Shown: positions 11,841 to 23,375 of the stretch, piece by piece
Numbering within the stretch: the first letter of the stretch is position 1
Layout of the letters: each line of letters starts with the position of its first letter
Source of the DNA: Bacteroidetes bacterium QS_3_64_15
GTDB taxonomy: Bacteria > Bacteroidota > Rhodothermia > Rhodothermales > Salinibacteraceae
DNA: 35,612 nucleotides
Direction of reading: 5' to 3'
Assembly: GCA_003022565.1 (NCBI GenBank)
Contig: PXTN01000127.1
Coordinates: 1 to 35,612, forward strand
The notes under the pieces: model-generated
Database searches by the model: none
What the model was told of the DNA's origin: nothing
The model's input: only the letters and a program-made list of their open reading frames with translations
Position numbers and translations under genes: made by a program

Positions 11841-12461
11841 TCAGGAATCTTCCGTCGTCGAAATGCCCTCGCCCGCCGTGCCCTCGGTCACGGTCTCGTC
11901 GCTGACCCCGTCCTCCTCCGGCGGCAGCGGGGGCCGAAACAGACTCACGATGGTGCGCCCGTAGGACCGGCTCGTCATCAGATGCGGGTGCTCGTCGAAC
12001 CAGTCGTGAGAGCTGTGTTCGAGCGTGAATACGCCGTCGGTCTGGAGGTGTGGGAGGGCCAGGTCGGGCATGTCCTGCATGGCCTCCAGCTCGTAGGGGG
12101 GGTCCGCCGTGATGAGATCGAGCTCCGGCCCGCCGTAAGATCGCAGGTACTCCACGGCGTCGCCCTGAATAAAGATGCACTTGTCCTCGACGCCGAGCTT
12201 TTCGGCGTTCTCTCGCGCGTAGTCGAGCACCTCGCGCTTCTGCTCTACGAAGGTTACGAGGGCCGCTCCCCGGCTGATGGCTTCGAGTCCGAGGGCACCG
12301 GTTCCAGCAAAGAGGTCGAGCACCTCGGCCCCTTCGAGGTAGATGCGGGCGTCGATGAGCCCAAACAGCGCCTCTCGGGTGCGGGCCGTCGACGGACGGG
12401 TTTGGTGGCCCGACGGGGTCTTGAGGCCGTGTCCCCCGAACCGGCCGGCGATGAGTTTCAT
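11841..12461 (-). CDS. rsmD: 16S rRNA (guanine966-N2)-methyltransferase
   Basis: A 206-residue RsmD. The N-terminal RPSTARTREALFGLI is characteristic. The SAM-binding FAGTGALG is at 51-58 and the catalytic DPPY at 120-123. The last 30 residues are an acidic Pro/Glu/Thr-rich tail that most family members lack. It is directly upstream of coaD. A dispersed repeat with a possible outward promoter lies about 150 bp upstream. Confidence 0.94.
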   Translation of the reverse strand: MKLIAGRFGGHGLKTPSGHQTRPSTARTREALFGLIDARIYLEGAEVLDLFAGTGALGLEAISRGAALVTFVEQKREVLDYARENAEKLGVEDKCIFIQGDAVEYLRSYGGPELDLITADPPYELEAMQDMPDLALPHLQTDGVFTLEHSSHDWFDEHPHLMTSRSYGRTIVSLFRPPLPPEEDGVSDETVTEGTAGEGISTTEDS

Positions 12462-12614
12462 GGAAGACGGGAATCGAATCGTGAGAATATTCTGAGAGCC
12501 CCTTCGCAGACACCCAGCGTATGGTAAACGGCGCTCGACGGAGAGATCCGCAACCGTCTCGACCTCCTACACCGCCGGGGTGCTCTCTGCCCAAGATCCA
12601 GCGTGGGCAGGCTC

Positions 12615-12790
12615 ATACCGTCTGCCGAAGATCATTATACACGGTCGAGCGCTCGCGATCGCAGGACGCGCCTCCTGAGGAGGATCGGTTCATTCCGGCC
12701 CCTTAGCCGGACTCTTCGCCGTTCGAACACAGCACTCAAAACGAGTTCGGAGCCTTCGGTAACGCGGATGGTGATGTCCGGTCGTTGGCA
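12615..12790. repeat. Dispersed structured repeat, copy 1
   Basis: About 88% identical by eye to 19634-19808, in the same orientation. On the minus strand it starts immediately after the stop codon of the gene ending at 12791. It contains potential stems that persist in both copies: CCTC/GAGG around the CCTCCTGAGGAGG palindrome, and CCGGC/GCCGG. It also carries TATAAT on the minus strand (12634-12639) directed toward rsmD. A 1-bp length difference between copies breaks any shared reading frame, so it is probably non-coding. No terminal inverted repeats or target duplication were found. Confidence 0.85.
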
Positions 12791-13744
12791 TCAGGCCGAC
12801 TGAACCCTCAGCGCTCCCCCGATGCAGGGAGCGCATGCGCCGGGGGCCTCATTTTCCGGCTGCTCCGACGCCCAGCGGAGGACGCCGAATGGATCGAGCG
12901 AAACGGGCGAACAGTCGAAGATGGTCTCCAATGGCACGGTCGCGGCAGCATCGGCGCCGGGGCCATAGAGAGAGAGCCCGCAAACCTCACTCACCGGCAC
13001 CCCAATTCGATTGAGAAGCCCAACCGCGTAATAGGCCTGGTTCTTGGGACGTCGCGCTTCCCGGGCGGCGTGCGCGTGGAACCACGTCTCCTCGTGCGTG
13101 AGAGCATACTCGATGTACGTCGGGTAGTGCCCAATGGCCAGGCCGTAGTCCCCCTCATTCTCAGGAAGCTTATTCTCAGGGAGAAGGTCCTCCTCGGTTT
13201 CGGCGCGTCCCGTCAGCGAGGCAACAGCCTCCGTGCTCACCATCCGGACGAAATCCTGCACGGGAAGAGCGGCACGGAGGGCATCCTGAAGCTCCTCAAT
13301 GACCTGCGGCACGGCCAGCACGTGAACCCACTCAACGGTCTCTCCGCCTACCTCGACGGTCCGCACCGACCGGGACGTGATGTGAAGAGCATTGGGGGAC
13401 CGGGTGTTCGTCACCAGCGCCGCCTGATACGCGATGCGTTGTCCGCGCTCCCGCTCGGAAAGCCCGGCTGGGATCGGCACAAAGAAACTATAAACCTCCA
13501 GCGGATGGACGACCAGTGCGATGGCCGAGGCCTCAGTGTCCTCAAGGGCGTCTTGGGCGAAGGTGCCGACCCGGTCGAGGGCGTCCGGGACTCCGTCCGC
13601 ATCCCAGAGGACCCCACGTCCGTCCAGGTCGACGGTCGTCGAGTCGAGACGCCGGAGCTGTAGGGTCGAGTCCTCCCGTCCGATCTCAGCGCACTGGATC
13701 GACGGCCCTCGAATGTGGATCGCGGCCGAAATCGACTGCGTCAT
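12791..13744 (-). CDS. Acidic protein of unknown function, possibly PilM/GspL-like
   Basis: A 317-residue protein I cannot assign firmly. The sequence alternates short beta-like and helical segments (SISAAIHIRGPSIQCAEIGR at the start, AIALVVHPLEVYSFFVPIP near 75, YGLAIGHYPTYIEYALTHE near 200) and ends with PCIGGALRVQSA. That recalls the C-terminal glycine-rich strand of actin-like PilM/GspL pilus-assembly proteins. There is no signal peptide or membrane helix. ATG at 13744 is preferred over the in-frame GTG two codons upstream. It is 69 bp downstream of a single-helix membrane protein with which it probably forms an operon. A dispersed repeat abuts its stop codon. Confidence 0.6.
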   Translation of the reverse strand: MTQSISAAIHIRGPSIQCAEIGREDSTLQLRRLDSTTVDLDGRGVLWDADGVPDALDRVGTFAQDALEDTEASAIALVVHPLEVYSFFVPIPAGLSERERGQRIAYQAALVTNTRSPNALHITSRSVRTVEVGGETVEWVHVLAVPQVIEELQDALRAALPVQDFVRMVSTEAVASLTGRAETEEDLLPENKLPENEGDYGLAIGHYPTYIEYALTHEETWFHAHAAREARRPKNQAYYAVGLLNRIGVPVSEVCGLSLYGPGADAAATVPLETIFDCSPVSLDPFGVLRWASEQPENEAPGACAPCIGGALRVQSA

Positions 13745-13813
13745 AACCACTGTTCATTGCGTCCCGATTCCCCTTCAGACGGGAAGCCGCCTCGAAGGGC
13801 AACTCCACCGCGC

Positions 13814-14275
13814 CTACTCCCAGCTGGCAGCATCCGCCTGCGTCGGGTCCCCCGTCAGGGTTCCGATTCTGTCGTCGGTATCGGGATCCTCAAGGACGTA
13901 CGTCTCGACTCGGCCCGTATCATTAACGGCGTACTGGAACCGGTTTCCCGTGCGTGGGGAGTACAGGAGAGAGTCGAGATTGATCGGGCCTCCGAACACG
14001 CTATCCTGCCGGGCAGAGAGGATGGAGTCGTTGCGCACATGCTGCAGAAGCAGGTTCAGCGAATCCGGATACGACGCACTGTCCCGCTCGTAGTCGACCA
14101 GGGCCGTCCGGATGTTTTCCATCCGAGCTCGTGTCTCTTCAGTAATGCGCTGCTGGCGCTCGATGCGATCGTACGGCTTGGTGATCGACTGGTACAGGAA
14201 GTATGCGAGGACGACGATTGCGATGCCCAGGACGATTTGAACGCCCGTCTGTATCATTCCACTGCTCATTGCCAT
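13814..14275 (-). CDS. Single-pass membrane protein with periplasmic coiled coil, possibly pilus/secretion related
   Basis: A 153-residue protein with one hydrophobic helix near residues 9-29, then a charged helical region (KPYDRIERQQRITEETRARM) and a C-terminal domain containing SYPDSLNLLL and SPRTGNRFQYAVND. The segment of the form IRTALVDYERD followed by SYPDSLNLLL resembles the layout of GspG-type pseudopilins and of small periplasmic pilus-accessory proteins, but there is no prepilin peptidase motif. ATG 14275 is chosen; ATG 14269 is an alternative. The open frame upstream lacks membrane or family character. It precedes the possible PilM/GspL-like gene. Confidence 0.6.
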   Translation of the reverse strand: MAMSSGMIQTGVQIVLGIAIVVLAYFLYQSITKPYDRIERQQRITEETRARMENIRTALVDYERDSASYPDSLNLLLQHVRNDSILSARQDSVFGGPINLDSLLYSPRTGNRFQYAVNDTGRVETYVLEDPDTDDRIGTLTGDPTQADAASWE

Positions 14276-14673
14276 GAGAGCCGTTCGTGTTGACGAGAAA
14301 ATGACCGGAAAGGTGACGAGTGCTCCGAAAATAGGAGGCTCCTTTGCGAAATGCAATTTTCCTCTTCCTCTCACCACGGCAATCTGCTCGCTGGTTCTGC
14401 GGAGGTGCAAAATTCGGTGCTCCCACGCGCCCTGACCGGAGGGATGAAGTGCGCTCGGAGTGCTCCCATGTCCTCGTCCCGATGGGGTTCGGGACATGTT
14501 CTCCCGCGCATTCGCGGCGTCTCTCCCGTGATCAGCGGCAGCGAAGCCTCCTTCGTTGGTCGGGAGCTTCCAACATGCAGTCGCCCTGCCCTCCTCGTCC
14601 GAAAACAAAGCAGGGCCACCCGTGTTGGACTCGACCACTCTACATTCCCGCCGGACAACCGGTTGCCCATCCT
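14276..14673. other. Divergent intergenic region upstream of pdxJ
   Basis: About 400 bp between divergently transcribed genes, without a convincing ORF. It includes an inverted repeat (CATGTCC with GGGACATG, around 14468-14500) and several C/T-rich runs. Promoters for both flanking genes should lie here, but I cannot place them. Confidence 0.5.
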
Positions 14674-15405
14674 GTGATCAATCTCCTCATCAACGTCGAT
14701 CACGTTGGCACCCTCCGCAACGCCCGCGAGGAGACGTTTCCCGATCCTGTGCACGCCGCTGCCCGCTGCGAGCAGGCGGGCGCCGACGGCATTGTCTTTC
14801 ACCTGCGGGAAGACCGCCGCCACATCACCGAGCGCGACGTGCGGCTCCTGTCCGAGACCGTGCAGGGCAAGCTCGACTTTGAGCTCTCGACGGAGGCCGA
14901 GGTCGTCTCCATCTGCTGCGACGTGGCGCCGGAGCTGGCGACGCTGGTGCCGGAGCGGCGAGAGGAGGTCACGACGGAGGGGGGGCTCGACGTGACGGCG
15001 CACCGGCAACGTCTTGGCACCGTGACGGATCGCCTCTACGACGCCGGGGTGAACCAGATAAGCTTCTTCGTGGACCCGGTCCCGGCGCACATTGAGGCCG
15101 CCGTCGAGCTCGGGGCCAACTGCGTCGAGCTTCACACCGGCGACTTTGCCGAGGCCCCGACGGAGGCGGCCCGCCGCGAGGAGGCCGAGCGACTCGCCAC
15201 CGGGGCCGAGGCCGCCCACGAGGCCGGGCTCCGCGTGCACGCGGGGCACGGGCTCAATTACCGCAATTTTCCACTCTTCCGCGACGTGGTGCCGCACGTC
15301 GCCGAGGTCTCTATCGGATTCGCGGTGATGGCCCGCGCCATCCTGGTGGGGATGGATCAGGCGGTCCGCGACATGCAGGCAACCGTGAGGAACGCACAGC
15401 CGTAG
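14674..15405 (+). CDS. pdxJ: Pyridoxine 5-phosphate synthase
   Basis: A 243-residue PdxJ, the TIM-barrel enzyme that condenses 1-deoxyxylulose 5-phosphate with 3-amino-2-oxopropyl phosphate to pyridoxine 5-phosphate. The start is taken as GTG at 14674, because the family N-terminus INLLINVDHVGTLRNARE begins there and no ATG is near; the longer open frame upstream has no similarity. Other motifs: ADGIVFHLREDRRHI, FELSTEAEV, ISFFVDP, VELHTGDFA, VHAGHGLNYRN. No clear Shine-Dalgarno is seen. pdxB of the same pathway lies 1.1 kb downstream on the opposite strand. Confidence 0.95.
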   Translation: MINLLINVDHVGTLRNAREETFPDPVHAAARCEQAGADGIVFHLREDRRHITERDVRLLSETVQGKLDFELSTEAEVVSICCDVAPELATLVPERREEVTTEGGLDVTAHRQRLGTVTDRLYDAGVNQISFFVDPVPAHIEAAVELGANCVELHTGDFAEAPTEAARREEAERLATGAEAAHEAGLRVHAGHGLNYRNFPLFRDVVPHVAEVSIGFAVMARAILVGMDQAVRDMQATVRNAQP

Positions 15406-15477
15406 GATATCGGTGCATTCCAATCCTGCGAGTTGGCTGCCGAGCCGCTGCCATCAAGTGCTGTCATCGAGTGTGGC

Positions 15478-15540
15478 GACCGCAGACGGCCGACTGCAGC
15501 CGGCGGTCTGCGGTCAGCCGACGGCGGTCCGCCGTCTCGT
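15478..15540. repeat. Self-complementary heptad array, locus 4 (pdxJ/era gap)
   Basis: Eight consecutive 7-bp words fit GNCNGCN without exception from 15478 to 15533. Because that word is its own reverse complement under rotation, the array folds back on itself. GACCGCAGAC (15478) pairs exactly with GTCTGCGGTC (15506), forming a 38-bp palindrome with four mismatches centred on CTGCAG. Then GACGGCGG and CCGCCGTC (15520-15536) form a perfect 8-bp stem. It lies between co-oriented pdxJ and era. Confidence 0.82.
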
Positions 15541-15620
15541 CAGAGACAGCACACCGGCCACAGTTTGAACGTCCCCCGATCTCAACGACCACGCACTCTT
15601 CCTTCCACTCCGGCGCCTCT

Positions 15621-16535
15621 ATGGAGAACTCTGATCCCTTCTTCGAGGACATCTCCGACGACCACGTCAGTGGCTACGTGGCCATCGTGGGCAAGCCCAA
15701 CGTGGGCAAAAGCACGCTGATGAACGCGCTGCTCGGGGAGAAGCTGTCGATTGTCACCAGAAAGCCGCAGACCACTCGTCACCGCATCCTCGGGATCCAC
15801 TCGGGCCCCGACCACCAGGTCATCTTCCTCGACACCCCGGGCATCATCGAGCCTCGGTACGCGCTGCACGAGTCCATGATGGGACAGGTGCAGGGGGCCA
15901 TCCGGGACGCCGATCTGCTGCTCTTCCTCCACGAGGCGACGCAGGAGGAACCGGACACGCAGAGCCTCGAGAAGATCGGCGATACGCCGGCGTTTTTGGT
16001 GCTCACGAAGATGGACCTGATTCCGCGGGAGAAGGTGCTTCCGCTCGTCGAGTCCTACAAAGAGATCCGGGCCTTCGACGAGGTGGTGCCTACCTCGGCG
16101 AAGGACGGCCACAACATCCAGAAGCTTCTGCAGCTTGTCCTCGATACGCTTCCGGAGGGCCCACCCTTCTATCCGAAGGAGATGATCAGCGAGCATCCGG
16201 AGCGCTTCTTCGTGGCGGAGATGATCCGGGAAAAGGTGTACCAGTACTACCATCAGGAAATTCCTTACTCCGTGCAGGTCAACATCGTCGCCTACGAGGA
16301 GCGGGGCGAAGGGGAAAAGGACTACATTGACGCAGAGATCGTCGTCATGGAGGCGTCGCACAAGGGCATCCTCATCGGCGAAAGCGGCAAGGCCCTCAAG
16401 AAAATGGGCATGACGGCCCGGGAGGACATTGAGGCGTTCGTCGAGACCCCTGTCTACCTGAACCTGCACGTAAAGGTGCAGGAGAACTGGCGCGACCGGA
16501 AAAACATCCTCCGTTCCTACGGCTACCGGTCGTAG
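15621..16535 (+). CDS. era: GTPase Era
   Basis: A 304-residue Era GTPase, which binds the 3-prime end of 16S rRNA and helps assemble the small ribosomal subunit. G1 is GKPNVGKS at 24-31, G3 is DTPG at 71-74, and G4 is TKMD. The C-terminal KH domain includes SHKGILIGESGKALKKMG and ends NILRSYGYRS. ATG 15621 is used because residues upstream in frame are translated heptad-repeat DNA. The acidic N-terminus ENSDPFFEDISDDH is an extra of about 15 residues. It ends 9 bp from the convergent pdxB. Confidence 0.97.
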   Translation: MENSDPFFEDISDDHVSGYVAIVGKPNVGKSTLMNALLGEKLSIVTRKPQTTRHRILGIHSGPDHQVIFLDTPGIIEPRYALHESMMGQVQGAIRDADLLLFLHEATQEEPDTQSLEKIGDTPAFLVLTKMDLIPREKVLPLVESYKEIRAFDEVVPTSAKDGHNIQKLLQLVLDTLPEGPPFYPKEMISEHPERFFVAEMIREKVYQYYHQEIPYSVQVNIVAYEERGEGEKDYIDAEIVVMEASHKGILIGESGKALKKMGMTAREDIEAFVETPVYLNLHVKVQENWRDRKNILRSYGYRS

Positions 16536-16544
16536 CCGCTCGCC

Positions 16545-17723
16545 TCAGTCAGGCTGGATCGTCAGCCCCTCCTCGACGGCCCGAACGTGCGCCGACGGGA
16601 CGGCGGTGTGGGGAAGCGAGTGCTGCTGCAATTCTCGACGCCGTCGGTAGTCTTTGCGTAGACTCGTGAAGGCGTCCGCACGCGCCTCCGGAGAATTGTT
16701 GGGGATCGCCCGGAGCGCCGCATCGTCGGCCCGGAGGTCATAGGCCTGTCGGGCGAGGTGGTCGAGCCACTCCGTCGTCGACAACCGTGGATCCGGGGGC
16801 GTACACTGCAGCTCGTCTTTCGGGGTCGGTCGGAGGGCCGCCGTCCCGCCCCAGGTGGGCTCCACGCCCAGCTGCTCACATAGCGCGTCGTAGAGCATTT
16901 TCGTGCCCCGCACCTTCCCGTCGTACGCGTACCCGGCAATGTGTGGCGTGGCCACGTCCACGACCTCAAGAAGCGCTGGGTCGTGGGCAGGCTCATTTTC
17001 CCACACGTCGAGCACCGCCGCGCTCACGCTTCCCTGCGTCCGCGCTCGCCGTAGCGCGCCCCCGTCCACGACCGGCCCGCGCGACGTATTCAGAAGCCAC
17101 GCCCCGCCGGTGAGGCGCCCGAGAAACGCCGCGTCCACGAGGTGGTGGGTGGGGTCGGGGCCGTCGGTGGTGAGGGGAACATGCAGCGTCACGATGTCGG
17201 CCTCGTCCAGCACCGTAGCCAGGGGCACGAACGGATGGGCGCGCCCTTTCGCCTCCGCGACCCGGGCCCGGGGCGGATCATGTGGGAGAATCGTCATCCC
17301 CAGCGCCGGGAGCCGACGGGCGAGGCGTCCGCCAATGTTGCCACACCCGACGATGCCGACGGTCTTACCCCGAAGCGTCTCTCTGCGGCGGCGCGCCAGC
17401 ACCAGCAGCGCCGCGACCACGTAGTCGGCCACCGAATCGGCGTTGGAGCCGGGAGCGTGGGCGAACGGAATGCCCCGCTCCCGAAGGCAGGCCCGATCCA
17501 CGTGGTCCGTCCCGATCGTGGCCGAGCCTACGAAGCGCAGGTCCGTCCCCTGCAGCAGGGCGGGCCCGACAGGCGTGACACTCCGCACCAGAAGAGCATC
17601 CGCCCTCTCTACGTCCGGGGGGGCGATGTCTCGGCCCTGCTTCGTGGAGACCGTCCCGAACTGGCCAAACGCCTCCTTGACGCGGGGGATATTGGTATCT
17701 GAGAGGATCCGAATCTCGCCCAC
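16545..17723 (-). CDS. pdxB: Erythronate-4-phosphate dehydrogenase
   Basis: A 392-residue D-2-hydroxyacid dehydrogenase of the PdxB type, oxidising 4-phosphoerythronate in the DXP-dependent vitamin B6 pathway. The N-terminus RILSDTNIP is PdxB-like. The NAD-binding motif is GIVGCGNIGGRLA. The catalytic Arg (NTSRGPVVD), Glu (DVWENEP) and His (TPHIAGYAYDGK) are all present, and the C-terminal extension matches the PdxB dimerisation domain rather than generic family members. It starts with GTG at 17723. It converges on era with a 9-bp gap. Proximity to pdxJ supports the pathway assignment. Confidence 0.9.
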   Translation of the reverse strand: MGEIRILSDTNIPRVKEAFGQFGTVSTKQGRDIAPPDVERADALLVRSVTPVGPALLQGTDLRFVGSATIGTDHVDRACLRERGIPFAHAPGSNADSVADYVVAALLVLARRRRETLRGKTVGIVGCGNIGGRLARRLPALGMTILPHDPPRARVAEAKGRAHPFVPLATVLDEADIVTLHVPLTTDGPDPTHHLVDAAFLGRLTGGAWLLNTSRGPVVDGGALRRARTQGSVSAAVLDVWENEPAHDPALLEVVDVATPHIAGYAYDGKVRGTKMLYDALCEQLGVEPTWGGTAALRPTPKDELQCTPPDPRLSTTEWLDHLARQAYDLRADDAALRAIPNNSPEARADAFTSLRKDYRRRRELQQHSLPHTAVPSAHVRAVEEGLTIQPD

Positions 17724-18069
17724 GGGTACGATGTCGACGTGGGTTCGACAAAATCATTCGGCGTTCATATTGCAAAAAGCCCTTACATCAAGGCTGTACT
17801 GAGGAATGATCAAGCAAGAAGAAATGGCCGGTCAATTAAGGACCAATCAGAGATGAATAGCGCAGTTACACTCTTAAACCTCTACGTTTCAACACTTTAC
17901 GGAAAATTGTCTCTGGAAACTCGGATCGGGGCTCGGTAGTTGTTCACCTTAATGCGGTAAAGCGTCCGCGGCGATGTAGCCTTTTTGCCGTGCTGTTCCT
18001 TGAGAGATGTCTCATCTCCTCCGGTTTCGCTCACCGTTTCACAGGTTTTCGAATAGCGCACCCCGGTGC
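17724..18069. other. AT-richer intergenic region between pdxB and the SleB-type gene
   Basis: Visibly lower in GC than its surroundings, mostly at 17745-17935. It holds no recognisable gene; a 66-codon plus-strand frame from 17739 has no family features. It should contain the divergent promoters of pdxB and the hydrolase gene. Confidence 0.5.
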
Positions 18070-18801
18070 ATGAACAAGCGTACGATCGTTCTCTGTGCCT
18101 CCGTCGGCACCCTCGTGCTTTCGGCCGCCCACGCGCCCGTACTCCTTGAGCGTCCGGGAACGGACTCCTCCATCTCATCGGCCGCCGAGTCTTGCGCCCG
18201 CGTCCGGGAGTCCGAACCTGTCCGCTCCGCCGGCCACGCTCGTTCCGCCAACTCAACCCAGTCGTCACAGCCGACGGAGGCCTCTCTCGCGCAGCTCAGC
18301 GCTGCCTACGGGTCCCCCGACTCTACTCGCGAGACGACCGCCCCGTCCCCCGCCGAGGTCGACGAACCGACCCTCTGGCTCGCCCGCGTAATCTACTCCG
18401 AAACCAAACTGCGCCACGAGCAGGAACTGGTCGCCTGGGTGGTCCGCAACCGCGTCGAGACCGCTTACCGCGGCAAGAGCACCTACCGGGAGGTGATACT
18501 GGACCCCTACCAGTTTAGCGCCTTCAATCCCGGCTCCTCAAAACGATCGCTGCTGATGCACTTGGAGCCGGAGACGCCGCTCCCGCGGTGGAAGCAGGCC
18601 CTGTGGATTGCTTACTACGTGCGGCACGCGGACCCGATTTACCGTCCCTTCTCGCGTCAGACTCGCCACTTCTTCAGCGAACGGTCGATGATGGGACGTC
18701 CCAAACCGTTCTGGGCCCGCCGGCATCGGTTCGTATCTCCTGGCCGGGACTACCAAGTCGACGAGCGCCGTTTTCGGTTCTACGAGGGGATTTCGTCGTA
18801 G
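18070..18801 (+). CDS. Exported SleB-type cell wall hydrolase
   Basis: A 243-residue exported protein with a signal peptide (about residues 1-22, ending SAAHA). A low-complexity Ser/Ala/Pro-rich linker follows to about residue 100, then a C-terminal SleB/Hydrolase_2 domain. The domain begins LWLARVIYSETKLRHEQELV, with the catalytic Glu111 in YSET, and contains WVVRNRVE and YREVILDPYQFSAF. SleB enzymes are lytic transglycosylases or amidases acting on peptidoglycan; outside spore formers they act in general wall remodelling. The GEP motif after the catalytic Glu is replaced by KLR, so activity is not certain. ATG 18070 starts the signal peptide. Confidence 0.82.
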   Translation: MNKRTIVLCASVGTLVLSAAHAPVLLERPGTDSSISSAAESCARVRESEPVRSAGHARSANSTQSSQPTEASLAQLSAAYGSPDSTRETTAPSPAEVDEPTLWLARVIYSETKLRHEQELVAWVVRNRVETAYRGKSTYREVILDPYQFSAFNPGSSKRSLLMHLEPETPLPRWKQALWIAYYVRHADPIYRPFSRQTRHFFSERSMMGRPKPFWARRHRFVSPGRDYQVDERRFRFYEGISS

Positions 18802-18864
18802 CTCCGAAAGGCGACCGTGCGTACCGACGCAGCAGCCTTAAGGAAGTCCTGCGCAACAAGGCCA

Positions 18865-18888
18865 CCCGCTGTCCCGAGGGGTAGCGGG
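18865..18888. terminator. Possible bidirectional hairpin between convergent genes
   Basis: CCCGCT and AGCGGG form a 6-bp stem with a 12-nt loop between the convergent hydrolase and beta-barrel genes. There is no T-run on either side, so only position and symmetry support it. Confidence 0.3.
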
Positions 18889-18936
18889 CAGCCGGGGATC
18901 ACCAGTTAGGGGATTTCTTGAATCACGTTCGCGTCC

Positions 18937-19539
18937 CTAAAACGTCGCGTGAAGGCGGAGTGCAACGCCCTGGAACCGAGGCTCGTCGTCCGCGTCCTCG
19001 AAGAGGTCCCCCTCATCCTCCGTGTACTCGTTGATTCCGTACTCGTAGCGCAGTTCGGGCTGCAGCGTCGCTCCCTCGCCGAGCGAAATAGCTGCCCCAA
19101 CGCCGATGTTCAGTGAGTACGACACGTCCTTGAAATCGTCCCCGAAAGCGTCCTCTACTCTCGGGAAGACGGCCATGGGTCCACCCAACAGATAGGGAGT
19201 CACAAGAGGCACAGGAAGCGTGAACTTGAGGTCGACCGGTACCTCGAAGCGTTCGATCTCCGTTCGGTCGTTCGGAAATTCGTACTCGCCAACCTTTCGG
19301 TAAAGCAGGCCGGGGCGGATTTTGAGAGGTCCCGCCGCTGCGTCGTAGACGACGCCGAGGTGGTAGCCCGTCGCGTTCTCAAAGGTGGCATCTCCGCTGC
19401 TGGTGTTGATGTCGTCGGCCGTCTCGAAGTTGAGCCCCGCCGCCACCCCGAACTGGGCTTGGGCAGGCATGGCTACGCTGCCGAGAAGGAGCGCGGCAAA
19501 AAGAGTAGAGAGGACGATGCGTTTCGTTTGGATGTACAT
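18937..19539 (-). CDS. Outer-membrane beta-barrel protein, paralog 1
   Basis: A 200-residue porin-family protein (OmpW/PorT-like small barrel). A signal peptide (MYIQTKRIVLSTLFAALLLG through PAQAQ) is followed by alternating amphipathic strands and a C-terminal aromatic residue (LRLHATF). Those strands are typical of an 8-stranded barrel: FGVAAGLNFE, GYHLGVVYD, LKIRPGLLYR, VTPYLLGGP, LNIGVGAAI, LQPELRYEYG. ATG 19539 begins the signal peptide. It is clearly paralogous to the next gene upstream, with the same strand order. A dispersed repeat lies in its upstream region. The ligand or function is unknown. Confidence 0.85.
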   Translation of the reverse strand: MYIQTKRIVLSTLFAALLLGSVAMPAQAQFGVAAGLNFETADDINTSSGDATFENATGYHLGVVYDAAAGPLKIRPGLLYRKVGEYEFPNDRTEIERFEVPVDLKFTLPVPLVTPYLLGGPMAVFPRVEDAFGDDFKDVSYSLNIGVGAAISLGEGATLQPELRYEYGINEYTEDEGDLFEDADDEPRFQGVALRLHATF

Positions 19540-19633
19540 AGAGTAGTGTAACTGTGGAATAAAATGTCGAACACGTAGACCAACTCGACACCACTGCCCG
19601 TGATCCCCACCCACGAGTGGATTCCCGCGAGTT

Positions 19634-19808
19634 ATACCGTCTGCCGAAGATCATTATACGCGGCCGAGCACTCGCGATCGCAGGACGCGCCTCCTGATGA
19701 GGGTCGGTTCATTCCGGCCCCGAGCCGGACTCTTCGCCGGTCGAACACGGCATTCAAAACGAGTTCGGAGCACCCGGCAACGTGGACCGTGATTTCCGGT
19801 GGTTGGTA
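19634..19808. repeat. Dispersed structured repeat, copy 2
   Basis: Second copy of the repeat at 12615-12790, same orientation, about 20 differences including one indel. On the minus strand it begins exactly after the stop codon of barrel paralog 2 and ends 95 bp upstream of the ATG of paralog 1. The CCTC/GAGG and CCGGC/GCCGG stems are kept. The TATAAT at 19653-19658 (minus strand) points at paralog 1. Confidence 0.85.
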
Positions 19809-20450
19809 CTAGAAAAGAACGTTCAGGCGCAGGGCAAAGGCGTCAAGCTTCCGCTCCGTTGGCTCGAAGTCCGTGTCTCCGACCTCGAAGTCGTCTACGT
19901 AATCCGAAGCCCCAAACTCATACAGGAACTCGGGCTGTAGCGTCAACCCGACCCCGGGAACCGATATGCCTGCTCCCACCCCGACGTTGAACGTGAACGA
20001 GATGTCTTCGAGTTCGTCGTCAAACTCATCATAGTCACTCCGGGGGAAAAACGCCTTCGGCCCACCGAGGATGTAGGGGCTGACGAGAGGAAACGGGAGC
20101 ACCGTGACCCGAACATCGACCGGGACCTCAAAGGCCGTAACATCGGCCTCGTCAGGATCTATTTCCGGGACGCTAGTGAAATCGTAGCTGCCAACATTTC
20201 TGTAGAGCAGTCCTGGCCGCAGATTAACAGGACCGAGCCCAAGATCGTAGACGACGCCAATGTGGTACCCAGTGGCATTATCGAGCGTCTCATTTTCACC
20301 TGTATTCGTGGTGGTCTCGATGTCTCCCGCCGAGTCGAAGTTCAATCCGGCAGACACGCCAAGCTGAGCCTGAGCCGGGGGAGATCCAATGCCGAAAAGC
20401 AGAATGGCAAGGAGAGCAGAATACGTAATCCGTCTGAGCGAAGAGCGCAT
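19809..20450 (-). CDS. Outer-membrane beta-barrel protein, paralog 2
   Basis: A 213-residue paralog of the 18937-19539 product. The signal peptide ends PAQAQ. Strands match one for one: LGVSAGLNFD, GYHIGVVYD, VNLRPGLLYR, VSPYILGGPKAFFPR, FNVGVGAGI, LQPEFLYEFG, with terminal LRLNVLF. Periplasmic-turn or loop segments are Asp/Glu-rich (YDEFDDELED, YVDDFEVGDTDFE). ATG 20450 starts the signal peptide; the frame continues upstream only through mobile-element DNA. A MITE-like element lies 36 bp upstream of the ATG, so transcription probably starts inside the element or crosses it. Confidence 0.87.
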   Translation of the reverse strand: MRSSLRRITYSALLAILLFGIGSPPAQAQLGVSAGLNFDSAGDIETTTNTGENETLDNATGYHIGVVYDLGLGPVNLRPGLLYRNVGSYDFTSVPEIDPDEADVTAFEVPVDVRVTVLPFPLVSPYILGGPKAFFPRSDYDEFDDELEDISFTFNVGVGAGISVPGVGLTLQPEFLYEFGASDYVDDFEVGDTDFEPTERKLDAFALRLNVLF

Positions 20451-20486
20451 GAGAGCTGAGAACAGTTTGACGAGAACGTGTGAGTG

Positions 20487-20688
20487 CACGGCAATCGCAT
20501 CAAATGCTCTTACCCCAAAAATACCGCTCAAGGCATTCTCTGCTCACAGAAACACCCCCATCGTCGCTCTGAGCTTGACTCAGAGCCCATCCGATTGTAC
20601 GAAAAGTCCCAACCAGTCGATCGGATCGGCTCCAAAGCAAGTTTGGAGCGACAGTGGAAGTCCTTCCTGTGTTGATGCGATTGCCGTG
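20487..20688. mobile_element. MITE-like element A, copy 1 (202 bp)
   Basis: Perfect 17-bp terminal inverted repeats (CACGGCAATCGCATCAA at 20487-20503 and its complement at 20672-20688). It is flanked by a perfect 10-bp direct repeat CGTGTGAGTG at 20477-20486 and 20689-20698, the signature of a target-site duplication. Inside are two perfect 8-bp-stem hairpins, GCTCTGAG/CTCAGAGC (20566-20586) and GCTCCAAA/TTTGGAGC (20629-20649). It has no coding capacity. It differs from copy 2 at 8 of 202 positions. Confidence 0.92.
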
Positions 20689-22893: not shown

Positions 22894-23375
22894 TGGCAGA
22901 CACGGTTGGGGAAGAGAAGGACGGATCGGACCTCCTCAATCTTCGCCGTCCGGGGAAGATCCGACGGATGCGGTTGGGCGCGTGAGAACGTAAGCGTAGT
23001 AAGCATGAGAGGCATGTCACGCACCACGTGCAACGTGTCATGCGTTCCTCCCACCTCCATATATCCATTCCCCCACACTTCTACGGCAATCGCATCAAAT
23101 GCTCTTGCCCCGAAAATACCACTCAAGGCATTCTCTGCTCACAGAAACACCCCCATCGTCGCTCTGAGCTTGACTCAGAGCCCATCCGATTGCACGAAAA
23201 GTCCCAATCAGTCGATCGGATAGGCTCCAAAGCAAGTTTGGAGCGACAGTGGAAGTCCTTCCTATGTTGATGCGATTGCCGTGCCCACACTTCCACTGCC
23301 CGAACACGCGATTTCCCCCTGGCGTTTACACGGTTCCTTTGGGCGGAGCGTGTTTGTAGACGGAGAGACGAGCCC
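22894..23375. other. Divergent intergenic region holding a heptad array and a MITE
   Basis: About 480 bp between the MBL hydrolase and LptF/G-family genes. Four heptads close to CACGYGY run from 23018 to 23045, with a looser facing array at about 22975-23010. MITE-like copy 2 occupies 23082-23283. The remaining 92 bp to the LptF/G start contain GGAGAGACGAGCCC just before the ATG, a plausible ribosome binding site. Confidence 0.6.
23082..23283. mobile_element. MITE-like element A, copy 2 (202 bp)
   Basis: Same length as copy 1 with 8 substitutions. The 16-bp inner portion of the inverted repeats (ACGGCAATCGCATCAA and its complement) is perfect. It is flanked by a different perfect 10-bp direct repeat, CCCACACTTC, at 23072-23081 and 23284-23293. 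Independent target duplications at the two copies show they arose by transposition. Both internal hairpins are preserved. Confidence 0.93.

Follow-up and report, generated by a model that had tools for sequence, protein, structure and literature searches.

The 175-bp repeat found twice in the window (the whole 35,612-nucleotide stretch of DNA analysed) is a non-autonomous MITE, an ordinary kind of element in itself. We consider it highly probable that the repeat was moved in trans by an IS630-type (DDE_3) transposase and that it inserts at, and duplicates, the triplet TNA. This reading is drawn from sequence comparisons: the termini of the element, TNA duplications across its family, insertion sequences (ISs) that share these termini, the empty site of one window copy and the distribution of insertion positions. 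From these we infer both the mobilisation in trans and the role of selection in intergenic placement. The interest lies in the TNA duplication and its stop-codon logic rather than in the MITE.

A dispersed repeat with inverted termini

The two window copies share their orientation and are 89% identical on alignment, confirming that the repeat pair is real. As originally noted, each directly adjoins the stop of the minus-strand gene upstream (last bases 12790 and 19808, next to TGA at 12793–12791 and TAG at 19811–19809), and each carries TATAAT on the minus strand toward the next gene (ATTATA at 12634–12639 and 19653–19658). The copies had been correctly located, but the given starts, 12615 and 19634, lie one base too far out, within the target duplication; the true starts are 12616 and 19635. 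The features are as follows.

12616..12790, minus strand: MITE copy 1 (175 bp), left end 12790, right end 12616
12791..12793, minus strand: target copy TNA (TGA on the minus strand), the native stop of the 319-aa gene; the relatives' homologue has TGA at the same place
12613..12615, minus strand: second target copy TNA of copy 1 (TGA on the minus strand)
12765..12790, minus strand: left terminal inverted repeat of copy 1 (consensus termini compared with shuffles)
12616..12641, minus strand: right terminal inverted repeat of copy 1, holding TATAAT at 12634–12639 (consensus termini compared with shuffles)
12791..13750, minus strand: 319-aa gene upstream of copy 1; no Pfam hit, syntenic position conserved in genus members
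11841..12461, minus strand: rsmD (named so in the original prediction), downstream of copy 1; leader block kept in relatives without the element
19635..19808, minus strand: MITE copy 2 (174 bp)
19809..19811, minus strand: left target copy of copy 2, TAG, the stop of beta-barrel paralogue 2
19632..19634, minus strand: right target copy of copy 2, TAA on the minus strand
19809..20531, minus strand: outer-membrane beta-barrel paralogue 2 (OMP_b-brl), upstream of copy 2
18937..19539, minus strand: outer-membrane beta-barrel paralogue 1, downstream of copy 2

Across its own genome (2.62 Mb, 131 contigs), the repeat occupies 12 convincing places, ten of them full-length (173–199 bp) and two truncated. 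Mean pairwise identity among the full-length copies is 83%; thus, transposition was not recent. One more partial copy of this subfamily lies in G002, a genome of the same genus, and no copy was found in the other 58 relatives searched. When the 199-bp form on contig C96 was used as query, extra partial copies appeared in the own genome (G000) at C81:22261-22346, C108:10544-10617 and C130:15154-15191. One copy (L151, contig C44, element 2020-2210) contains a short stretch, around CAATCGCGAGTGC, that is duplicated in tandem.

Aligned copies have sharp ends and unrelated flanks, with TNA preceding TACCAACTACCGGAAATCAC at the left and following TATAATGATCTTCGGCAGACGGTA at the right. Inverted termini had been reported as not visible; the ends in fact form imperfect inverted repeats of ~26 bp (TACC...GGTA), identical at 18 of 26 positions, a match equalled by 1 of 20,000 shuffles and a gapped score reached by 0 of 5,000. 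The repeat has the size and dispersal of a MITE (about 175 bp, where under about 300 bp is expected; multicopy, in 12 places; no transposase gene), together with terminal inverted repeats, a target duplication, termini common with an autonomous-type element and an empty site.

TNA duplication and related insertion sequences

We searched for the wider family with the terminal pattern ATACCNNNTNCCGANGATCNTTNTGCA, allowing up to 3 mismatches. The pattern matched 12, 15 and 26 times in the same-genus genomes G007, G008 and G010 (a control pattern, about 0) and was rare outside these three. The sister-genome elements are mostly MITEs of 120–193 bp belonging to differing subfamilies. Against a collection of genome contigs, the exact terminal-repeat pattern gave only four isolated matches, in unrelated phyla and at about chance level.

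What does the element duplicate? The original prediction saw no target duplication; a 3-bp TNA duplication is nonetheless evident. The sister genomes supply 37 paired elements and ISs. Of these, 26 carry TNA at either end, and 24 of the 26 pairs agree in N (permutation mean 10.2; none of 20,000 permutations attained 24). The flanks of copy 1 are TGA/TGA and those of copy 2 TAG/TAA, where TAG is probably a mutated TAA. In the own subfamily only 4/10 flank pairs are identical; the own copies would be insufficient alone, and it is the sister families that prove the TNA duplication. Read left to right, the own copies all have a purine, A or G, in the middle of the right-flank triplet, a one-sidedness with a two-sided chance of about 0.002 if purine and pyrimidine are equally likely, as judged post hoc; sister subfamilies have both in this position.

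Complete ISs bounded by these termini were found in G003 (1141 bp, flanks TTA/TTA), G004 (1147 bp, TTA/TTA) and G017 (1031 bp, TCA/TCA). The G003 transposase matches NCBIfam NF033545 (IS630; E = 1.9e-42) and Pfam DDE_3 (E = 2.5e-27). The DDE transposase of IS630 type is thus carried by the related ISs and not by the MITE, and every IS630 copy seen with these termini has a frameshifted or degraded transposase. In the own genome, which is 84% complete, we found no IS bearing the MITE's termini and no intact matching transposase; contig C78 carries just a distant DDE_3 fragment.

The missing intact transposase, like the weak agreement of the own flanks, would suit a structured non-coding RNA, or a repeat that multiplied by recombination, whether segmental duplication or gene conversion, and not by transposition. 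We regard this as extremely improbable, given the sharp boundaries between unrelated flanks, the terminal inverted repeats, the TNA duplications of the sister families, the ISs with the same ends and the empty site of copy 1; an Rfam scan of the window gave no match. A reading in which TA is duplicated around an element CC..GG was also rejected: TGA/TGA and TCA/TCA flanks lack TA, the empty site holds a single TGA, and the G017 IS itself has TCA/TCA.

In size, the related ISs (about 1.0–1.15 kb), with their terminal inverted repeats and NF033545 and DDE_3 transposase, resemble the IS630 family within the IS630-Tc1-mariner group. For that group as a whole a TA target duplication is stated (PMC8533490); TNA (TTA, TCA, TAA or TGA) is therefore a departure. 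A non-canonical 3-bp duplication in an IS630-type group bears on the evolution of target choice in the IS630-Tc1-mariner group. A literature search on Salinibacter MITEs and on IS630 elements that duplicate TNA, with ISfinder outside its scope, found nothing relevant. That an IS630-type clade shifted its duplication from TA to TNA and, in addition, has a real preference for native stops as safe sites, kept intact by the duplication, is conceivable, if rather doubtful.

A close parallel may be drawn with RUP (repeat unit of pneumococcus), a MITE related to IS630-Spn1 (PMC2229807, PMC3049150). RUP is likewise about 100–200 bp, non-coding and mostly intergenic, its termini match an IS630-family IS, and mobilisation in trans has been proposed for it. 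RUP targets, however, contain TA and its terminal repeat is listed as 9 bp, whereas here TNA is duplicated and the terminal repeats are about 26 bp; moreover, the present repeat has a low copy number and an unrelated sequence.

Placement at stop codons

TTA is the complement of TAA, and TCA that of TGA. Hence any TNA spells a stop on one strand or the other, so that an insertion can fall on a stop and duplicate it. This gives a simple sequence rule for a mobile element to settle immediately behind genes and do them no harm. In the mechanism that we propose, an IS630-type (DDE_3) transposase from elsewhere would bind the ~26-bp terminal repeats and move the MITE, which would insert at a TNA triplet and leave it duplicated. 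Native stops would be eligible targets, TNA reading TAA or TGA on one strand; insertion there would keep the stop intact and place the element directly behind the gene. Genic insertions would mostly be removed by selection, leaving survivors that are intergenic and sometimes exactly at a stop.

Where the duplicated triplet is now an in-frame stop, the target must, mutation aside, have been an in-frame stop before insertion. The search for empty sites in relatives that the original prediction proposed bore this out for copy 1: the homologous gene in G003, G004, G007 and G011 ends with TGA at the same place, and the element is absent. The gap to rsmD is 130–148 bp in these four relatives, compared with 151 bp here once the element and one TGA are subtracted. 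At copy 2, the barrel gene ends ...F-stop, at the same residue as in relatives, which have no element. The C96 copy is also missing from relatives, but their intergenic sequence has diverged too far for the target to be pinpointed. The neighbourhood of copy 2 is conserved, with two OMP beta-barrel genes in tandem at 18937-20531 against one in the relatives examined; copy 2 sits between the two paralogues.

Is the stop a preferred target? Placement at stops does not hold as a general rule. When distances to stops were checked, only 2/10 own full-length copies lay exactly at one, both in the window. The other eight are mostly intergenic; two meet short open frames, and several lie at distances of 27–382 bp from the closest gene boundary. 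Most copies of the own genome thus lie elsewhere, which is largely the outcome that the original prediction had named as counting against it. Of the sister elements, 6/26 are exactly at stops. Computed from the window and individual loci rather than from the whole genome, stops make up 3.5% of non-genic TNA sites at the sister-element loci, 7.0% in the window and 9.0% in the relatives' syntenic regions. We left the two window copies out of the test, as they had drawn notice by sitting at stops; the remaining 6/34 give a binomial p of 0.001 at a background of 3.5%, 0.05 at 8% and 0.12 at 10%.

These numbers bear on a mobile element that, over and above its need for TNA, actively prefers stops or the 3' ends of genes, for instance through a link to termination or to a protein bound there. 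The excess over the lower background speaks for such a preference, but it fades at backgrounds of 8–10%, purifying selection against promoter and gene hits can yield an equal excess, and the majority of copies are away from stops; we judge it unlikely. Any stop preference beyond target choice and selection is at most weak. Within the window, 792 of 1021 TNA sites (about 78%) lie inside genes, yet very few elements are found there, which points to loss of harmful insertions. The earlier suggestion of a mobile element with a site preference for gene ends thus survives in part: the repeat is a MITE, its TNA target includes stops and gene interiors are avoided, but exact placement at stops is not general.

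A comparable bias is known from BOX repeats of S. pneumoniae, in which 36/58 CDS overlaps are at extreme gene 3' ends (PMC3049150). The BOX repeat itself encodes the stop (PMC3049150), whereas in the present case the stop comes from the native target triplet, which insertion duplicates.

Promoter and terminator signals

The genes on either side of each window copy run in the same direction, TATAAT faces the next of them, and RNA-like hairpins can be drawn in the copies. The TATAAT and the hairpins had suggested a combined terminator/promoter cassette, that is, an intergenic control element under selection, serving as terminator for the transcript upstream and, through the outward TATAAT, as promoter for the next. 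Several results argue against it: (i) TATAAT lies within the right terminal repeat and is found in only 5/11 copies having that end, the others reading CACAAT, CATAAC, TACAAT, TACAGT or TATACT; (ii) a consensus scan confined to sigma-70 found no promoter pair near either copy; (iii) the scan for intrinsic terminators drew a blank at copy 1 and gave a single weak hairpin of 5 pairs at copy 2, so that a promoter pair and a U-tract terminator hairpin conserved among copies were not found; and (iv) other copies lie between genes of differing orientations. The two hairpins of the original prediction do appear in predicted folds, but the overall stability of copy 1 is ordinary (z = -0.58 on both strands), and two-sided compensatory change affects only 2/43 consensus pairs. 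Ordinary stability and almost no covariation likewise removed an RNA-structure hypothesis from consideration.

Upstream of rsmD, a block GGATCTCT...GTTTACCAT is common, with some variation, to relatives without the element; thus, the leader sequence is older than the insertion, which again argues against the cassette. We therefore hold a cassette to be very improbable; other promoter types, or a chance promoter effect of single copies, may occur. Correia/NEMIS elements of Neisseria are also MITEs with long terminal inverted repeats, and functional promoters are reported to arise from them (PMC2229807, PMC3049150). They differ from the present repeat in sequence and host, and here there is no evidence for the hexamer of the terminal repeat acting as a promoter.

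The window also holds an unrelated second MITE of ~202 bp, at 20487-20688 and 23082-23283, whose two copies are 97% identical. It has inverted termini of 15–17 bp, CACGGCAATCGCATCAA and TTGATGCGATTGCCGTG, the second copy beginning TACGG, and apparent 10-bp duplications, CGTGTGAGTG and CCCACACTTC. Additional copies lie on contigs C84, C89, C110, C98 and C86.
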